In this document: one piece after another, positions 33,290 to 62,367 of the stretch
How the letters are laid out: each line of letters starts with the position of its first letter
Numbering within the stretch: position 1 is the stretch's first letter
Assembly (NCBI RefSeq): GCF_032884065.1
Contig: NC_088867.1
Coordinates: 44,827,453 to 44,891,452, forward strand
From: Artemia franciscana
Lineage: Eukaryota > Arthropoda > Branchiopoda > Anostraca > Artemiidae
DNA: 64,000 nucleotides
Direction: 5' to 3'
Position numbers and translations under genes: made by a program
Notes under the pieces: generated by a model
Databases searched by the model: none
What the model saw: the letters and a program-made list of their open reading frames with translations, nothing else
What the model was told of the DNA's origin: nothing

Positions 33290-33945
33290 TAATAAATGCT
33301 AATGCTAAATGCTAATAAACAAATCGAGGTGGTTGACCATTTCAAGTATTTTGGTCCTATTATATCTTTGGACGTCCTAATAGACCACGAAGCTGTTGCC
33401 CACTCGGTCAAGGCCTCTGGCATCCAAAGAAGGCTGTACCAAAGTAGGCTGAGCAACGTTTGAAAGATACCGATGATCCAACGTCCCACCAAAATGAAGA
33501 TCCTTGGAGCCTCAGTCAGTTCGATGCTCCTGTAAGGACCAGAGAGTTGGCCTGCAACTGCAGTCCAGTGCTGTCTCGATACTCTTCAATCTTAGTGACT
33601 CTGGAGAATTGAGGGAGTCTGATGGATAGACTTGGCCAGCAATGACCGCCTACGAAGTATGACTTCGCACTCTCTCTTTTCACACCAGGCTGCGTAGCGG
33701 ACAGTTCGCTGGTTTGGATATATTCTAGAGCTGCCTGCCGACACACCGGGTCAGATTATTTATGACTTTGAACGAGTCAGTAGTGGCAGGAACTGTCCAA
33801 GAGGAAGGCCCGATTTTCGGTATAATGGCAGTCTGAGGAAACTACTTGACTAGCTGAAATTTCGCTGTCAGATGATGCTGCCCACCCCACATGGAGAAAG
33901 TTGACGACGCTCTTAGCACTACCCCGGCATGAGGATTGAGTAAAG
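33290..33945 (+). mobile_element. Degenerate LINE ORF2 3' fragment
   Basis: The + frame NKQIEVVDHFKYFGPIIS matches the VD.FKYLGS.IS segment downstream of LINE RT catalytic motifs. Further on, shifted frames give pieces resembling RLRWFGHILRLP and a PRGRP tail. Multiple frameshifts make this a dead relic. Confidence 0.7.
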
Positions 33946-34055
33946 TAAGTAAGCAATAATGGCTATCAATATGTAAATATCTTTAATAATAGACGTTTCA
34001 ATTTTAATAATCTATATATATAAAAATAATTTGTATGTGTGTTATGTCTGTCGAG

Positions 34056-34238
34056 TGACGTCATGTTTGTGTCACCTGACGTCATGTTTGTCGACTGACG
34101 TCATTATAAGGATTGAGCTGTATGCGTCATGAAGTTGTTTGTCGACTGACGTCATGTTTGTCAACTCATGTTTGTCGACTGACGTCATTATAAGGATTGA
34201 GCTGTATGCGTCATGAAGTTGTTTGTCGACTGACGTCA
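34056..34238 (+). promoter_or_regulatory. Six TGACGTCA octamers at a Helitron 5' end
   Basis: TGACGTCA is its own reverse complement and equals the CRE consensus for CREB/ATF-type bZIP factors. It is joined to GTCGAC palindromes in most copies. The role is unknown: candidates are iterons bound by the Helitron Rep protein or a promoter/enhancer of the element. Confidence 0.5.
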
Positions 34239-34254
34239 TGTTTGTCAACTGATT

Positions 34255-34545
34255 AAATTACAGACGGGGACACCGGGACACAAATGGCGACCGGGACACC
34301 GGGAATATAAATGACGACCGGGAACCTCAAAGAGAAATTACAGACTGGGACACCGGGACACAGGGAATATAAAAGACGACCAGGACACAGGGACACAACT
34401 ACAACGGGGACGCCGGGGGCACAGGGGGGATATATAAATGACGACCGGGACACAGGGAATATAAATGGCGATCGGGACACTCAAAGAGAAATTGCAAACT
34501 AGGACACCGGGACTATAAATGACGACCGGGTCACAGGGACACATC
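34255..34545 (+). repeat. CCGGGACAC minisatellite (plus orientation)
   Basis: Irregular units such as GACACCGGGACACAGGGAAT followed by ATAAATGACGAC. Same array as 1400-1765 but on the opposite strand. Confidence 0.85.
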
Positions 34546-34716
34546 ATTAGAATAATGAGGTATAGATCTGAATACGGATTGTTTTTCCCATGGACAATTA
34601 TATGTTGCATGTTCAAGAGTCAGTAAACCTGACAATCTACAGACAATGGAACAGCGAAGAATGTTGTATATTCGCAAGTTTTACGAAGTTAAAACTGTGT
34701 CCCTATGTCCCACCTG

Positions 34717-35054
<338 letters not shown>

Positions 35055-35055
35055 T

Positions 35056-35480
35056 TTAACTACGTAAAACTTGCGAATATACAACATTCTTTGCTGTCCC
35101 ATTGTCTGTGCATATAAATAGATTGTCAGGTTTACCGACTCTTGAACATGCAATATATAATGGTCCAAGGTAAAACAATCCGTATTCAGATCTATACCTC
35201 ATGATTCTAATGATTGCCCTTGAGCTTTGTTGATGGTGATTGCTAATCGACCATTCCCTGTGTCGCCGTCGTCATTTATATACCCCCCTGTGCCCCCGGC
35301 GTCCCCGTTGTAGTTGTGTCCCTGTGTCCCGGTCATCATTTATATTCCCTGTGTCCCGTTCGTCATTTGTGTCCCGGTGTCTCAGTCTGTGATTTCTCTT
35401 CGAGTGTCCCGGGCGTCATTTATATTCCTTGTGTCCCGGTCGTCATTTGTATCCCGGTGTCCCGGTCTGTATATACATTC
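35056..35480 (-). mobile_element. Helitron piece: helicase C-terminus remnant plus minisatellite (unit 1)
   Basis: The minus strand encodes fragments around NKAQGQS and the terminal LYIRKFY region with frame breaks, followed by the TGTCCCGGTCGTCATTT array (35245-35478). Confidence 0.75.
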
Positions 35481-35727
35481 GTTTTTGAATTGGTGTTTTT
35501 TTTTAGTTTTTTACCTTTTTTTAGTTTTTTTAGTTATATCTCATGATTCTAATAATTGCCCTTGAGCTTTGTTGATGGTGATTGCTCATCGAACATTCCC
35601 TGTGTCCCCATCGTCATTTATATATCTCCTTGTGCCCCCCGGCGTCCCCGTTGTAGGTGTGTCCCTGTGTCCTGGTCGTCATTTATATTCCCTGTGTCCC
35701 GGTCGTCATTTGTATCCTGGTGTCAAA

Positions 35728-36313
35728 AGTATAGACGTCCACGAAATCAACAATATTGTTTTTACCAAGATTCGAGACCAGGCAGTCCTTTACAAGTCAG
35801 TCGACACAGTTTTGGAACCAAATGAAGCGGTTAATTATCCATCTGAATTTTTAAATTCCCTAGATCTTTCACGGTTTCCACCACACGTGCTACAACTAAA
35901 AATAGGCGTACCAATAATACTTTTAAGAAATATCAACCCACCAAAGCTTTGCAATGGCACGCGACTTGCCGTAAAAAAAACAAACAATGGAAAACCTAAT
36001 AGAGGCCACAATCTTGACAGGGCCTTTTGAGGGTGAGGCTGTTCTTATTCCTCGCATTCCCATGATTCCAACGGATCTGCCTTTTCAATTTAAAAGATTG
36101 CAATTCCCAATTCGATTAGCATTTGCAATCACCATTAACAGAGCTCAAGGTCAATCATTAGAAAAATGTGGTATAGATCTTAATACTGATTGTTTTTCCC
36201 ATGGACAATTGTACGTTGCATGTTCGAGGGTCCGTAAACCTGACAATCTATTTATATGCAGCGACAATTGGACAGCGAAGAATGTTGTATATTCGCGAGT
36301 TTTACGCAGTTAA
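35728..36313 (+). pseudogene. Helitron PIF1-like helicase C-terminus, frameshifted (unit 1)
   Basis: Encodes [35 protein letters not shown], then after a frame change in an A-run near 35978 FPIRLAFAITINRAQGQSLE (helicase motif VI) and [11 protein letters not shown], with a stop after VLRS. The 5' part is replaced by minisatellite sequence, so only the helicase C-terminus survives. Confidence 0.85.
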
Positions 36314-36492
36314 TTTGTATTGTATCTATCTATCTATCTATCTATATAAGAACAAGTTGTGTGTATGCATGTTTGTTTGTTTGTAAAAAGAGCGTTTGCA
36401 TATAACGTCATTATTAGTACATACGGCTTTGTATATGCACAGACAATGGGAAAGCCAAGAATGTTGTATATCTGCAATTTTTACGTAGTTTA

Positions 36493-36770
36493 ACTCCTGC
36501 AGACGAAATGAATGCTTGCCTGAAAAATTCTAATTTATGGGCACACGTAAAAATATTAAAATTAACTACAAATATGCGTGTCTGATTGCAAAACGATGAC
36601 TCTGGTCAAACATTTTCAGATCAATTGCTGGCAATTGGAAACGGAAAGCTCCCAGTAGACTCAATTTCAGGACGTATACAACTACCTGCTGATTTCTGTA
36701 ATTTAGTGACGTCCAAAAATGAATTGATTGAAAAAGTATTTCCGAATATTCTAAAAAATTATAAAAATAA
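36493..36770 (+). pseudogene. Helitron helicase middle fragment, cut by an inserted Helitron (unit 1)
   Basis: TPADEMNACLKNSNLWAHVK, KLTTNMRV (with an in-frame TGA after V), [16 protein letters not shown] through ILKNYKN. The frame stops exactly where the minus-oriented Helitron end CTAG begins at 36771. Confidence 0.85.
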
Positions 36771-37017
36771 CTAGCTGTTGGGGTGGCGCTTCGCGCCACC
36801 CCAACACCTAGTTGGTGGGGCGCTTCGCGCCCCCCAAGCCCCCCCGCGCGCGTAAGTCGTTACGCGCCATATTAGTTACGCGCCATTGTAGTTGTGTCCC
36901 TGTGTCCCACCTGTGAATAATGACGTCATATGCAAACGCTCTTTTTACAAACAAACAAACATGCATACACACAACTCGTTTTTATATAGATAGATAGATA
37001 GATAGATACAATACAAA

Positions 37018-37519
37018 TTAACTACGTAAAACTTGTGAATATACAACAGTCTTCGCTGTCCCATTGTCTGTGCGTATAAATAGATTGTCAGGTTTACCGA
37101 CCCTCAAAGATGCAACATACAATTGTACATTGGTAAAGCAATCTGTATTAAGATCTATACCGCATTTTTCTAGTGATTGCCCTTGAGCTTTGTTGATGGT
37201 GGTTGCAAATGTTAATCGAATTGGGAATTGCAATCTTTTAAATTGAAAAAGCAGATCCGTTGGAATCATGGGAATGCGAGGAATAAGAACAGCCTCACCC
37301 TCATAAGGCCCTGTCAAGATTGTGGCATCTATTAGGTTTTCCATTGTGTTTTTTTTACGGCAAGTCGCGTGCCATTACAAAGCTTTGGTGGGTTGATATT
37401 TCTTAAAAGTATTATTGGTACGCCTATTTTTAGTTGTAGCAGGTGTTGTGGACACCCTTAAGGATCTATGGAATTTAAAAATTCAGATGGATAATTAACC
37501 CCTTCATTTGGTTCCGAAA
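37018..37519 (-). pseudogene. Helitron helicase C-terminus, degenerate duplicate
   Basis: The minus frame has [20 protein letters not shown] through TINKAQGQSLEKCGIDL and ends VLRS-stop. It is preceded in a shifted frame by [17 protein letters not shown]. Several replacements of conserved positions (for example VASLRV for VACSRV) indicate relaxed constraint. Confidence 0.8.
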
Positions 37520-37525
37520 TACAAA

Positions 37526-38340
37526 TTAACTGCGTAAAACTTGCGAATATACAACATTCTTCGCTGTCCAATTCTCGCTGCATATAAATAGATTGTCAGG
37601 TTTACCGACCCTCGAACATGCAACGTACAATTGTCCATGGGAAAAACAATCAGTATTAAGATCAATACCACATTTTTCTAATGATTGACCTTGAGCTTTG
37701 TTAATGGTGATTGCAAATGCTAATCGAATTGGGAATTGCAATCTTTTAAATTGAAAAGGCAGATCTGTTGGAATCATGGGAATGCGAGGAATAAGAACAG
37801 CCTCACCCTCAAAAGGCCCTGTCAGGATTGTGGCCTCTATTAGGTTTTCCATTGTTTTTTTTACGGCAAGTCGAGTGCCATTGCAAAGCTTTGGTGGGTT
37901 TATATTTCTTAAAAGTATTATTGGTACGCCTATTTTTAGTTGTAGCACGTGTGGTGGAAACCCTGAAAGATCTATGGAATTTAAAAATTCAGATGGATAA
38001 TTAACCGCTTCATTTGGTTCCAAAACTGTGTCGACTGACTTGTAAAGGACTGCCTGGTCTTGAATCTTGGTCAAAACAATATTGTTGATTTCGTGGACGT
38101 CTATATTTTTGGGTGCGAGAATCGCTCTTTCACTTAGCCATTTATTATTTTTATAATTTTTTAGAATATTCGGAAATACTTTTTCAATCAATTCATTTTT
38201 GGACGTCACTAAATTACAGAAATCAGCAGGTAGTTGTATACGTCCTGAAATTGAGTCTACTGGGAGCTTTCCTTTTCCCATTGCCAGCAATTGATCTGAA
38301 AATGTTTGACCAGAGTCATCGTTTTGCAATCGGTTTGCAA
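37526..38340 (-). pseudogene. Helitron PIF1-like helicase C-terminal ~270 residues (unit 1)
   Basis: An uninterrupted frame from [16 protein letters not shown] through [39 protein letters not shown] and AITINKAQGQSLEKCGIDL to VLRS-stop. Motifs I-IV of the helicase and the Rep nuclease are absent. It is fused directly to the N-terminal repeat region in another frame. Confidence 0.85.
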
Positions 38341-38449
38341 TCAGATTGCTCTGATTCCTCGGCACGCTTTCTTCTCTTACTTTCTCTATCAGCAGCAAGC
38401 CTGATTTCTTGCTGTTCTTGTAATTCCTCGGCACGCTTTCTTTTCTTAC

Positions 38450-39045
<596 letters not shown>

Positions 39046-39295
39046 CGTTTTTGAATTGGTGTTTTTTTTTAGTTTTTTACCTTTTTTTTTAGTTTTTTTA
39101 GTTATATCTCATGATTCTAATAATTGTCCTTGAGCTTTGTTGATGATGATTGCTCATCGAACATTCCCTGTGTCCCCATCGTCATTTATATATCTCCTTG
39201 TGCCCCCCGGCGTCCCCGTTGTAGGTGTGTCCCTGTGTCCTGGTCGTCATTTATATTCCCTGTGTCCCGGTCGTCATTTGTATCCTGGTGTCAAA

Positions 39296-39881
39296 AGTAT
39301 AGACGTCCACGAAATCAACAATATTGTTTTTACCAAGATTCGAGACCAGGCAGTCCTTTACAAGTCAGTCGACACAGTTTTGGAACCAAATGAAGCGGTT
39401 AATTATCCATCTGAATTTTTAAATTCCATAGATCTTTCACGGTTTCCACCACACGTGCTACAACTAAAAATAGGCGTACCAATAATACTTTTAAGAAATA
39501 TCAACCCACCAAAGCTTTGCAATGGCACGCGACTTGCCGTAAAAAAAAAAAACAATGGAAAACCTAATAGAGGCCACAATCTTGACAGGGCCTTTTGAGG
39601 GTGAGGCTGTTCTTATTCCTCGCATTCCCATGATTCCAACGGATCTGCCTTTTCAATTTAAAAGATTGCAATTCCCAATTCGATTAGCATTTGCAATCAC
39701 CATTAACAGAGCTCAAGGTCAATCATTAGAAAAATGTGGTATAGATCTTAATACTGATTGTTTTTCCCATGGACAATTGTACGTTGCATGTTCGAGGGTC
39801 CGTAAACCTGACAATCTATTTATATGCAGCGACAATTGGACAGCGAAGAATGTTGTATATTCGCGAGTTTTACGCAGTTAA
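39296..39881 (+). pseudogene. Helitron helicase C-terminus, frameshifted (unit 2)
   Basis: Copy of 35728-36313. The A-run at the frameshift differs slightly between the units, and both are out of frame. Confidence 0.85.
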
Positions 39882-40060
39882 ATTGTATTGTATCTATCTA
39901 TCTATCTATCTATATAAGAACAAGTTGTGTGTATGCATGTTTGTTTGTTTGTAAAAAGAGCGTTTGCATATAACGTCATTATTAGTACATACGGCTTTGT
40001 ATATGCACAGACAATGGGAAAGCCAAGAATGTTGTATATCTGCAATTTTTACGTAGTTTA

Positions 40061-40338
40061 ACTCCTGCAGACGAAATGAATGCTTGCCTGAAAAATTCTA
40101 ATTTATGGGCACACGTAAAAATATTAAAATTAACTACAAATATGCGTGTCTGATTGCAAAACGATGACTCTGGTCAAACATTTTCAGATCAATTGCTGGC
40201 AATTGGAAACGGAAAGCTCCCAGTAGACTCAATTTCAGGACGTATACAACTACCTGCTGATTTCTGTAATTTAGTGACGTCCAAAAATGAATTGATTGAA
40301 AAAGTATTTCCGAATATTCTAAAAAATTATAAAAATAA
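40061..40338 (+). pseudogene. Host Helitron helicase fragment left of the insertion (unit 2)
   Basis: Same as 36493-36770. The reading frame ends in ...ILKNYKN plus AA and resumes with T AAA TGG CTA ([12 protein letters not shown]) at 42733, on the other side of the inserted element. Confidence 0.88.
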
Positions 40339-40585
40339 CTAGCTGTTGGGGTGGCGCTTCGCGCCACCCCAACACCTAGTTGGTGGGGCGCTTCGCGCCC
40401 CCCAAGCCCCCCCGCGCGCGTAAGTCGTTACGCGCCATATTAGTTACGCGCCATTGTAGTTGTGTCCCTGTGTCCCACCTGTGAATAATGACGTCATATG
40501 CAAACGCTCTTTTTACAAACAAACAAACATGCATACACACAACTCGTTTTTATATAGATAGATAGATAGATAGATACAATACAAA

Positions 40586-41093
40586 TTAACTACGTAAAAC
40601 TTGTGAATATACAACAGTCTTCGCTGTCCCATTGTCTGTGCGTATAAATAGATTGTCAGGTTTACCGACCCTCAAAGATGCAACATACAATTGTACATTG
40701 GTAAAGCAATCTGTATTAAGATCTATACCGCATTTTTCTAGTGATTGCCCTTGAGCTTTGTTGATGGTGGTTGCAAATGCTAATCGAATTGGGAATTGCA
40801 ATCTTTTAAATTGAAAAAGCAGATCCGTTGGAATCATGGGAATGCGAGGAATAAGAACAGCCTCACCCTCATAAGGCCCTGTCAAGATTGTGGCATCTAT
40901 TAGGTTTTCCATTGTTTTTTTTTTACGGCAAGTCGCGTGCCATTACAAAGCTTTGGTGGGTTGATATTTCTTAAAAGTATTATTGGTACGCCTATTTTTA
41001 GTTGTAGCAGGTGTGGTGGACACCCTGAAGGATCTATGGAATTTAAAAATTCAGATGGATAATTAACCCCTTCATTTGGTTCCGAAATACAAA
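40586..41093 (-). pseudogene. Second, degenerate helicase C-terminus in the same Helitron
   Basis: [20 protein letters not shown] and further residues, then after a frame change in a poly-A run [20 protein letters not shown] to VLRS-stop. It directly follows the stop of the first helicase copy, a tandem arrangement suggesting read-through or recombination between elements. Confidence 0.8.
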
Positions 41094-41899
41094 TTAACTG
41101 CGTAAAACTTGCGAATATACAACATTCTTCGCTGTCCAATTCTCGCTGCATATAAATAGATTGTCAGGTTTACCGACCCTCGAACATGCAACGTACAATT
41201 GTCCATGGGAAAAACAATCAGTATTAAGATCAATACCACATTTTTCTAATGATTGACCTTGAGCTTTGTTAATGGTGATTGCAAATGCTAATCGAATTGG
41301 GAATTGCAATCTTTTAAATTGAAAAGGCAGATCTGTTGGAATCATGGGAATGCGAGGAATAAGAACAGCCTCACCCTCAAAAGGCCCTGTCAGGATTGTG
41401 GCCTCTATTAGGTTTTCCATTGTTTTTTTTACGGCAAGTCGAGTGCCATTGCAAAGCTTTGGTGGGTTTATATTTCTTAAAAGTATTATTGGTACGCCTA
41501 TTTTTAGTTGTAGCACGTGTGGTGGAAACCCTGAAAGATCTATGGAATTTAAAAATTCAGATGGATAATTAACCGCTTCATTTGGTTCCAAAACTGTGTC
41601 GACTGACTTGTAAAGGACTGCCTGGTCTTGAATCTTGGTCAAAACAATATTGTTGATTTCGTGGACGTCTATATTTTTGGGTGCGAGAATCGCTCTTTCA
41701 CTTAGCCATTTATTATTTTTATAATTTTTTAGAATATTCGGAAATACTTTTTCAATCAATTCATTTTTGGACGTCACTAAATTACAGAAATCAGCAGGTA
41801 GTTGTATACGTCCTGAAATTGAGTCTACTGGGAGCTTTCCGTTTCCCATTGCCAGCAATTGATCTGAAAATGTTTGACCAGAGTCATCGTTTTGCAATC
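41094..41899 (-). pseudogene. Helitron PIF1-like helicase C-terminal ~268 residues
   Basis: Open frame from [17 protein letters not shown] to VLRS-stop. It shows [45 protein letters not shown] (motif VI) and [17 protein letters not shown]. It lacks Walker A/B and everything upstream. The longer open frame extending to 42551 is the wrong-frame reading of the N-terminal repeats. Confidence 0.85.
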
Positions 41900-42573
41900 G
41901 GTTTGCAATCAGATTGCTCTGATTCCTCGGCACGCTTTCTTTTCTTACTTTCTCTATCAGCAGCAAGCCTGATTTCTTGCTGTTCTTGTAATTCCTCGGC
42001 ACGCTTTCTTTTCTTACTTTCTCTATCAGCAGCAAGCCTGATTTCTTGCTGTTCTTGTGATTCCTCGGCACGCTTTCTTTTCTTACTTTCTCTATCAGCA
42101 GCAAGCCTGATTTCTTGCTGTTCTTGTAATTCCTCGGCACGCCTTCTTTTTTCACATTCTCTTTTAGCAGCAAGTCTGCTTCTGCGTTGCTCTGGTAGTT
42201 CCTCGGCATGCTTTCTGTTCTTTCTTTCTCTATCAGCCTCAAGCCTGTTTCCCTGCTGGTCTTTTGATTCCTCGGCACGCGTTCTTTTTTCACTTTCTCT
42301 TTTAGCAGCAAGTCTGCTTCTGCGTTGCTCTGGTAGTTCCTCGGCATGCTTTCTGTTCTTTCTTTCTCTATCAGCCTCAAGCCTGTTTCCCTGCTGGTCT
42401 TTTGATTCCTCGGCACGCCTTCTTTTTTCACTTTCTCTTTTAGCAGCAAGTCTGCTTTCGCGTTGCTCTGGTAGTTCCTCGGCACGCTTTCTTTTCTGAC
42501 TTTCTCTATCAGCAGCAAGTTTTTTGGCATAGACTCTTTGAGCATCTTCATCAGTCATTGTAAACTTAAACAT
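41884..42573 (-). CDS. Helitron N-terminal domain ORF, 229 residues with 23-residue repeats
   Basis: Starts MFKFTMTDEDAQRVYAKKLA, followed by about nine copies of a 23-residue unit of the form [20 protein letters not shown] followed by QEI (69 bp at the DNA level). It is highly charged and predicted helical. This kind of Arg/Glu repeat is common at the N-terminus of arthropod Helitron Rep/helicase proteins and may contact nucleic acid. The frame terminates at 41884, just inside the helicase segment, because the internal deletion joined the two parts out of frame. Whether it is expressed is unknown. Confidence 0.65.
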   Translation of the reverse strand: MFKFTMTDEDAQRVYAKKLAADRESQKRKRAEELPEQRESRLAAKRESEKRRRAEESKDQQGNRLEADRERKNRKHAEELPEQRRSRLAAKRESEKRTRAEESKDQQGNRLEADRERKNRKHAEELPEQRRSRLAAKRECEKRRRAEELQEQQEIRLAADRESKKRKRAEESQEQQEIRLAADRESKKRKRAEELQEQQEIRLAADRESKKRKRAEESEQSDCKPIAKR

Positions 42574-42732
42574 TAATAGATTTCTACGCGAACATATGTC
42601 TTATATAACTTGAATGACGTCACCTTCAAAGCAAAAATGATGGCAACTAATTTCATGACGTCAGCCGAAACATGACGTCACCTGATCCATCCACAGATCC
42701 ACACACAGACAACTTATTTTTATATATATAGA

Positions 42733-43587
42733 TAAATGGCTAAGTGAAAGAGCGATTCTCGCACCCAAAAATATAGACGTCCACGAAATCAACAATATTG
42801 TTTTGACCAAGATTCGAGACCAGGCAGTCCTTTACAAGTCAGTCGACACAGTTTTGAACCAAATGAAGCGGTTAATTATCCATCTGAATTTTTAAATTCC
42901 ATAGATCCTTCAGGGTTTCCACCACACGTGCTACAACTAAAAATAGACGTACAAATAATACTTTTAAGAAATATCAACCCACCAAAGCTTTGCAATGGCA
43001 CGCGACTTGCCGTAAAAAAAAACAATGGAAAACCTAATAGAGGCCACAAACTTGACAGGGCCTTTTGAGGGTGAGGCTGTTCTTATTCCTCGCATTCCCA
43101 TGATTCCAACGGATCTGCCTTTTCAATTTAAAAGATTGCAATTCCCAATTCGATTAGCATTTGCAATCACCATTAACAAAGCTCAACAATTGGACAGCGA
43201 AGAACGTTGTATATTCGCAAGTTTTACGCAGTTAATTTATATTGTATCTATCTATCTATCCATCTATATGAAAACGAGTTGTGTGTATGCATGTCTGTTT
43301 GTTTGTAAAAAGAGCGTTTGCAGATGACGTCATTATTAGTACATACGGCTTTGTATATGCACAGACAATGGGAAAGCCAAGAATGTTGTATATTCGCAAT
43401 TTTTACGTAGTTTGAAACACATATATAAATCTATCTATATTCACAGGTGGGACACAGGGACACAACTACAATGGCGCGTAACTAATATGGCGCGTAACGA
43501 CTTACGCGCACGGGGGGGCTTGGGGGGGCGCGAAGCGCCCCACCAACTAGGTGTTGGGGTGGCGCGAAGCGCCACCCCATCAGCTAG
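42733..43587 (+). mobile_element. Host Helitron, right part with intact 3' end
   Basis: Resumes the interrupted helicase ([19 protein letters not shown]), then has frame breaks. A deletion in motif VI joins INKAQ to the NWTAK region through a short shared CAA. A (CTAT)n leader follows, then two GC hairpins (43525-43541 and 43556-43578), each followed by CTAG (43547-43550 and 43584-43587). Confidence 0.85.
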
Positions 43588-43717
<130 letters not shown>

Positions 43718-44096
43718 TTTAACTACGTAAAACTTGCGAATATATAACATTCTTTGCTGTCCCATCGTCTGTGCATATAAATAGATTGTCAGGTTTACCG
43801 ACTCTTGAACATGCAACGCATAATGGTCCATGGGAAAACAATCCGTATTCAGATCTATACCTCATGATTCTATTGATTGCCCTTGAGCTTTGTTGATGGT
43901 GATTGCTAATCGACCATTTCATTTGTTGCCGTCGTCATTTATATATCCCCCTGTGCCCCCCGGCGTCCCCGTTGTAGTTGTGTCCCTGTGCCCGGGTCGT
44001 CATTTATATTCCCTGTGTCCCCGTCGTCATTTGTGTCCCGGTGTCCCAGTTTGTGATTTCTATTTGAGTGTCCCGGGCGTCATTTATATTCGTCAG

Positions 44097-44180
44097 GATA
44101 TTGTAGGGCATCGTAGCATCGATGAGTTTAAGCAATTCTTGTCAACTGATTGTTTCGCCTATAAAGAATATTATCTCGAG
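44097..44180 (+). other. Exon-like 84-nt segment inside a Helitron
   Basis: Bounded by CAG on the left and GTAAGA on the right, and open in frame for exactly 28 codons (DIVGHRSIDEFKQFLSTDCF followed by AYKEYYLE). No Helitron similarity. It could be a captured host exon, on the strand opposite to the element, or a piece of a retroelement. The protein is not recognised. Confidence 0.4.
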
Positions 44181-44301
44181 GTAAGAACTGATCACCGACC
44201 ACAACGATTGCCACTTTGTTGATAGTTGCGTATCAGGAGGCATCAATTCGATTGCTGTTTTTAAGCAGAAGCACTAAATTATTATTTTTGTGGAAAAGAT
44301 G

Positions 44302-44335
<34 letters not shown>

Positions 44336-44396
44336 TTTCTTTTTAGTTTTTTTGTAGTTTTTACCTTTTTTAGTTTTTTTCTTCTTTTGTATTAAT

Positions 44397-44476
44397 GCTA
44401 AAGCCAAGGTTCAAACCTGGAGCCTCTCGGACCTAGAACCTGAAACATAACGCTTTACCAACTCAGCTACTTCGGC
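44397..44476 (-). tRNA. tRNA-like segment inside a Helitron (probable pseudogene)
   Basis: The minus strand has an A-box-like TAGCTGAGTTGGTAAAGC, a B box GGTTTGAACCT within a T arm that pairs (CCAGG/CTTGG), and acceptor pairing GCCGAAG/CTTTAGC with one mismatch and one G-U pair. The anticodon arm does not fold convincingly, so no anticodon is assigned. Confidence 0.4.
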
Positions 44477-44832
44477 GTGAATACATTCGTTTTGAGCAGC
44501 TTCCTCGGGTGTTGCCATTGTAGGTTCTTCAGTCATTTTACAATTAGAAATTTCTCTTTCAACGGTCTTCTTACAATTAAAAATTTGTCTTTGAACGATA
44601 TTCTTAAATACCTGTGTCCTGGTCGTCATTTATATTGCCTGTGTCCCGTTCGTCATTTGTGTCCCGGTATCCCAGTCTGTAATTTCTCCTTGAGTGTCCC
44701 GGTCGTTATTTATATTCCCTCTGTCCCGGTCGTCATTTGTGTCCCGGTCTGTAATTTCTCTTTGAGTGTTTTTTCTTTTTAGTATTTTTTAGTTTTTTAC
44801 ATTTTTTCTTTTTTCAGTTTTCTTTTTCTTCT

Positions 44833-45183
44833 TTATTTTTCAGCTTCACTATGAAATACATATCGCCGAACCTTTGTTTTTTTAACTAAAATCTGGTAGG
44901 CATTGATGACCTTATCCAAGTCAAGATCCCAAACCCAATCATCATCGCTATCATTTTTAGTTTTGATATGTTTTGACTCTCGCTGTCCAGGTGGATCTTC
45001 ATCTAACTGCGCGGTTTTGCGTTCTTTAGCCTCAAGCCTGTTTCCTTGCTGTTCTTTTGATTCCTCGGGACGCTTTCGTTTCTGACTTTCTCTATCAGCA
45101 GCAAGTTTTTTGGCATAGACTCTTTGAGCATCTTCATCGGCTTTTGCCATTGTAAGTTCATCAGTCATTTTAAACTTAAACAT
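44833..45183 (-). pseudogene. Helitron N-terminal ORF fragment, 116 residues
   Basis: MFKFKMTDELTMAKADEDAQ, then RVYAKKLAADRESQKRKRPE, resembles the start of the 42573 ORF but with only about two repeats. It continues into a unique acidic tail DSDDDWVWDLDLDKVINAYQ and ends HSEAEK-stop. The tail has no counterpart in the other copy. Confidence 0.6.
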
Positions 45184-45338
45184 TAATAGATTTATACGTG
45201 AACATATATGTCTTAAATATCTTTAATGACGTCACCGTCGTAGCAAAAATGACGACAACTAACTTCATGATGCCAGTCGACACAGAAACATGACGTCACC
45301 TGATCCACAGACAGACAACTTATTTTTATATATATAGA

Positions 45339-45469
45339 TAGATATAATTCTAAAATTGTCAGGTAATTTTCTATTTTGAAATAAAAACTAAAAATTATTG
45401 CCCAGACAACATAAATATTTTTGATATTTACATAATAGCTTTAGTGGTTCTGGACTGAAAACTAAATAT
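45339..45469. other. Non-Helitron spacer
   Basis: AT-rich island between two Helitron pieces, possibly original host DNA. Confidence 0.35.
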
Positions 45470-45796
45470 GCTAATCAAATTGGGAATTGCAATCTTTTAG
45501 GTTGAAAAGCAGATCCATTGGAATCATGAGAATGCGTGGAATAAGAAAAGCCTCACCCTCAAAAGGCCCTGTCAAGATTGTTGCCTCTATTACGTTATAA
45601 CAGACATAACACGTCATTTGTGTCCCGGTCTGTAGTTTCGTCAGTCGACAAACATGACGTCAGACGACAAACAACTTCATGACGACATACAGCTCAATCC
45701 TTATAATGACATCAGTCGATAAACATGACGTCAGTCGACACACAAACATGACGTCAGTCGACAGACAGACAAACAACTTATTTTTATATATATAGA
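45470..45796 (-). mobile_element. Small Helitron derivative, minus orientation
   Basis: The 5' end TCTATATATATAAAAATAAG is at 45796, with TGACGTCA/GTCGAC leader repeats, then a helicase fragment (45470-45597) corresponding to the LTGPFEGEAVLIPRI to FPI segment. The 3' end is missing. Confidence 0.72.
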
Positions 45797-46090
<294 letters not shown>

Positions 46091-46683
46091 TTTGAATAAA
46101 CTTTTCAAAGCAAGTTTTAATTTAAACAATAGAACATATTTAATAATATGTCAATTTTAAATAGTAAGAGATGTCAGTAATGGACATAATATTGTAATAT
46201 ATGTCAATACGATGATTAATAATAGAATATATATCAATATTTCAATTATAAATGAGGTGCATATGCTATCTTCTGAGGAAAGTCGTAGTCTGCTACCCGC
46301 ATGATCAATCCCAGCACATCCACTTATCAAGATCGCTATAAAAAACATTGTCTAAGTACGTTTTCTGGGAATATATTCTCACCCGAACTTATTGGCCGTA
46401 AACATCAATCTCGGACCAGACCTCCTGTCAAAAGCCAGACGTATTTCTTCTTTCTAAGGAATTGTTTTCACCCTGGTCACTAATTCCTCTTCACTAGACA
46501 AGTTTAAGTCATTTTATTGAAAACGGATACCGCTTGCTACGGGAGCTCATAACACCCTGTTGATACCAGAATAGTGCCTTTAGAATGAGCTGTAGCACCC
46601 ATACAAGAGGAGACACCTCTGACTAAGCCCTTGATGAACGGCTACACTCAACCTTCACGGCTTTACTAAACTGTTTACATATT

Positions 46684-47421: not shown

Positions 47422-62367
<14,946 letters not shown>

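Follow-up and report, generated by a model that had tools for sequence, protein, structure and literature searches.

An apparently non-autonomous Helitron that probably inserted into the helicase gene of a related Helitron in Artemia franciscana

Two Helitrons in opposite orientation

The window analysed in this study, a stretch of 64,000 nucleotides from Artemia franciscana (contig NC_088867.1), carries at 40339-42732, on the minus strand, a Helitron of 2394 bp that appears to be non-autonomous and that lies within another Helitron of the opposite orientation. The boundaries of this insert are defined by termini common to other copies and by an exact empty-site alignment. Its first bases are TCTATATATATAAAAATAAG, with the initial TC at 42732, and it closes with a hairpin and CTAG at 40339; the coordinates, the orientation, both ends and the flanking bases were all found to be as given in a preliminary description of this DNA.

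The host is a broken fragment. To the left of the insertion (40070-40338, plus strand), a Pfam search of the second frame identified the helicase by a match to PIF1 (PF05970, profile positions 163-218 of 223, E 2.9e-7; residues 2057-2107) at 40070-40222, and the flank alignment extends the homology at the DNA level past this match to 40338. To the right (42733-43587, plus strand), DNA alignment, self-BLAST and the end search recovered the C-terminal part of the helicase, followed by a 3' hairpin, CTAG and then T, so that the 3' end of the host, at 43587, is clear. At the other side, the 5'-end search returned the beginning of an outer plus-strand element, namely A and then TC, at 34011-34041, which we infer to be a candidate for the 5' end of the host.

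The ends of the insert recur elsewhere in the window. Using the first 150 bases of the element as a query, nine matches were obtained besides the focal site. First, four long matches begin exactly at TC, at 45338(-), 1856(-), 34011(+) and 45796(-). Second, four short matches of 31 bases, at 36337, 36994, 39905 and 40562, also start with TC after A, and correspond to second 5'-like sequences situated internally and to the tandem copies of these. Third, a match near 45936 begins at base 3 of the element. The TC is preceded by A at the focal site, in three of the four long matches and in all four short ones; the base before it at 1856 is C, not A, which counts against the canonical reading. Matches to the last 150 bases, in turn, extend to the terminal base at 36771(-), 43587(+) and 750(-), and in all of them, just as in the focal copy, a T comes after CTAG. 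Counting 36771, the tandem duplicate, together with the focal 40339, there are three distinct 3' CTAG sites. Among the further 3'-end matches, some are partial and end before the terminus, and four of 42-43 bases represent the other strand of the hairpin.

This hairpin (40339-40379, minus strand) is predicted by DNA folding to consist of a 14-bp stem with a 3-nt loop, followed by a G-G mismatch and an outer CTAG/CTAG pairing, and it ends in CTAG. When folded as single-stranded DNA, the last 70 nt of the insert give -36 kcal/mol (z -9.62), with none of 200 shuffles as stable, and the 3' end of the host (43518-43587) folds similarly (-34.1, z -7.91, 0/200 shuffles), its stem having one more mismatch. 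From CTAG to CTAG the sequence is nearly self-complementary, and the structure is longer and nearer to the terminus than usual. Exact-pattern scans for the hairpin gave no matches in viral and prokaryotic contig collections, a result of little weight, since the genome of the window may itself lie outside them.

Long TA arrays adjoin the Helitron pieces, at 34720-35051, 38454-38617, 43588-43714, 45921-46037 and 900-1201; the first two bracket one of the tandem copies described below (copy A), and the array at 43588 starts directly after the 3' CTAG end. Other features of the neighbourhood include a tRNA-like match at 44396-44476 (minus strand; Rfam, 35.6 bits with a cut-off of 29), for which ARAGORN gives the anticodon CTA and, under bacterial settings, the name tRNA-Pyl, and which may be a pseudogene or a repeat derived from a tRNA. 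An exon-like open reading frame at 47422-47763 (minus strand) encodes a Nore1-SARAH domain (PF16517, E 2.2e-12) of the sort that RASSF-type genes carry and points to an animal, and weak reverse transcriptase fragments at 57240-57912 (plus strand) score 24.0 and 23.9 bits, under the Pfam cut-off of 29.6.

Coding content and composite structure of the insert

On its minus strand, the insert has an open frame of 485 aa (41094-42551) with a Pif1 2B domain on the C-terminal side (PF21530, E 6.8e-19), and an open reading frame of 229 aa (41884-42573) with STPR repeats (PF21107, E 3.7e-13), which repeat analysis resolves into 8.7 copies of 69-bp units. Because the repeat units are 69 bp, more than one frame is open across them. 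Self-BLAST further revealed two helicase C-terminal pieces arranged head to tail on the same strand (40578-41087 and 41086-41593), which are 92.7% identical. A search for relatives of the 485-aa frame in viral contigs gave 11 stretches by pattern and none confirmed by tblastn, a result that says little given the viral nature of the collection, and our literature search found no paper treating Helitrons together with STPR.

To this we add a six-frame scan of 33901-46202, in which Pif1 2B and PIF1 scored over the Pfam cut-offs, and STPR and UvrD_C_2 under them. No Rep-type family was found in these six frames at E 0.01, with stops read as X, a setting that reduces sensitivity: the STPR repeats score 25.7 bits in this way (cut-off 27) versus 50.1 bits on the intact open reading frame. 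The RepHel protein, which only autonomous members carry, was likewise not recovered, the insert having only C-terminal pieces of a helicase and STPR repeats. Since no Rep family was found next to these pieces, the insert looks non-autonomous on the basis of its sequence.

The end search also placed a second sequence resembling a 5' terminus inside the insert (40532-40562, minus strand), which agrees with the real 5' end in 26 of 31 bases. Because this sequence, at 40562(-), lies 224 bp ahead of the 3' end, the insert is probably composite. The pieces of the host carry a similar 5'-like sequence at the corresponding place, past the C-terminus of the helicase. The arrangement fits a model put forward in the account of the FoHelis elements of Fusarium oxysporum (PMC5148889), by which the products of self-insertion would combine a single 3' terminus with several 5' termini. 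It is tempting to speculate further that the insert transposed as one composite, bearing a pair of 5' termini and a single 3' terminus, that its near-self-complementary hairpin, running from CTAG to CTAG, could terminate either orientation and would thereby favour repeated self-nesting, and that the STPR frame may encode a DNA-binding accessory borne by the Helitron; we consider this extended scenario rather unlikely.

The insertion junction and the order of events

The preliminary description held that the two flanks, when read across the insert, form a helicase sequence still present without interruption near 41725 of the minus strand. We therefore aligned the joined flanks, taking 250 and 500 bases, with the reverse complement around 41712/41713. 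A total of 630 of the 642 columns are identical, and the differences, namely ten mismatches and two one-base gaps, all fall away from the join, which bears the claim out. No base is duplicated or missing at the join, apart from an ambiguity of one T at the 5' junction, where the insert begins with T and the target resumes with T; the placement between A and T, free of target duplication, thus carries this one-base ambiguity. A 40-base query over the join, allowing up to two mismatches, has two matches in the window, at 41732(-) and at 38164(-), the latter being the tandem duplicate of the former. As a control, none of 2000 random removals of 2394 bp yielded a comparable uninterrupted copy; this control also demanded an exact central 12-mer, a condition that makes it slightly more stringent than the true-join search, and the true join has such a 12-mer too.

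The empty site is accordingly exact to the base, as had been proposed. However, it is a paralogous stretch located within the insert itself, together with its tandem duplicate, rather than an independent locus: both uninterrupted matches in the window sit in the insert or in its duplicate, and no independent empty allele was seen there. Self-BLAST detected no second full-length copy of the insert within the window, the only second copy of the insertion being the 1683 bp of the 3' side of the element that are found in the tandem duplicate, at 36771-38453.

The duplication itself was delimited by self-BLAST and copy alignment, both copies being on the plus strand. Copy A (35052-38453) runs into a TA array where its insert stops, at 38453, and in copy B (38618-42021) the sequence goes on beyond 42021 to make up the complete insert. 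Their offset is 3566 to 3568 bp, and they are identical in 3382 of 3404 columns, with 20 substitutions and 2 gap columns. Nine of the 20 substitutions are bunched in about 190 bp (35193-35379 versus 38759-38945), a cluster for which gene conversion is perhaps responsible. The same insertion junction is present in both copies, at 36770/36771 in A and at 40338/40339 in B, and the insert in copy A retains, from its 3' end, 1683 of its 2394 bp, the 711 bp of the 5' side being absent. The preliminary description had noted that the insertion could be dated relative to its host. This holds, with the host preceding the insertion, and the junction shared by both copies allows the series to be extended: a real duplication would be the younger event, giving the order host, insertion, tandem duplication.

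Of the alternatives that we considered, the one that survives best concerns this last step. It accepts the insertion as real and takes the tandem duplication for an assembly artefact, arising because two haplotypes were laid end to end or because a TA array led to a misjoin, in which case the time step of insertion before duplication is lost. In our judgement, allelic variation could account for so small a difference between the copies (20 substitutions plus 2 gap columns over 3404), and there are TA arrays on both sides of copy A, with copy B beginning at one. However, the copies are unequal in extent, and the 711 bp absent from A follow B unbroken. We regard an artefact as the less probable of the two, while granting it an appreciable chance.

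Mode of insertion and relation to known Helitrons

Canonical Helitrons are described as having TC and CTRR ends, a palindrome near the 3' end and insertion between A and T (PMC4778049), and in ten sequenced Helraiser insertions from the same source TC is joined to A and CTAG to T. The insert has TC and CTRR ends and a hairpin palindrome near its 3' end, the latter being atypical in stem length and spacing. Its hairpin is longer than the 16-20 nt described in PMC4067079, and its stem stops 5 nt from the terminus, closer than the distance of about 11 bp given there, which counts against the canonical reading. Despite this, a Helitron-type insertion into a related Helitron, as originally suggested, is the best reading, supported by the join and by the ends found in other copies of the window.

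We thus favour, with a probability of roughly 93%, a rolling-circle transposition in which an internally deleted and apparently non-autonomous Helitron, served in trans by a Rep-helicase, entered the helicase gene of a closely related element, duplicating no target bases. The events would have been as follows. First, an earlier self-insertion in the lineage may have provided the second internal 5' end. Second, a Rep-helicase acting in trans would have mobilised the insert, presumably by way of a circular intermediate. Third, the insert would have entered the helicase gene of its close relative, in the opposite orientation and between A and T. The tandem duplication would have come afterwards, if it is real and not a matter of assembly.

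An element of the Helentron or Helitron2 kind, inserted between T and T, is very improbable. The 5' junction, ambiguous by one T, does permit such a parse, but TC and CTAG ends are present, most TC ends have A before them, and the outer 120 bases of both ends show no subterminal inverted repeat linking them, 361 of 500 shuffles being as good; we rejected this identity on the lack of such repeats. A rearrangement without transposition, in which Helitron copies of opposite orientation recombined by inversion or template switching, would suit a locus rich in inverted and direct Helitron pieces, with host and insert mutually inverted, but we rejected it as a very improbable cause of the junction in view of the base-exact ends, since both breakpoints match to the base termini found in other copies, and the two flanks adjoin to the base in the uninterrupted stretch.

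The proposed insertion of an apparently non-autonomous Helitron by rolling-circle transposition can be placed among known systems as follows. First, it resembles the canonical animal Helitrons Helibat and Helraiser, as described in PMC4778049, in its 5' TC, its 3' CTAG and palindrome, its target between A and T without duplication and its Pif1-like helicase, and differs from them in that no Rep was found in the insert and in its STPR repeats. Second, it is like DINE-1 and the HINE Helentrons, non-autonomous rolling-circle elements whose borders were also confirmed by means of paralogous empty sites; those elements, however, are described as having subterminal inverted repeats and a T-rich target (PMC4067079), and no such repeats were found in the outer 120 bases of the two ends of the insert. 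Third, among the FoHelis a putative autonomous Helitron holds a non-autonomous one, and the same account (PMC5148889) presents models for self-insertion in opposite orientation and for elements in which several 5' termini go with a single 3' terminus. These models of nesting and composite structure fit the present case as well, although the ends of FoHelis are non-canonical and Helitron2-like, whereas those of the insert are of the canonical kind and lie in an animal genome.

Nested and composite Helitrons have thus been published before (PMC5148889), PMC6544945 and PMC13282606 contributing no decisive evidence, and the present case is ordinary in kind. It leaves the view of how Helitrons work unchanged, and offers a clean case of self-nesting, resolved to the base and with its events placed in relative order, which fits the published models of composite Helitrons.
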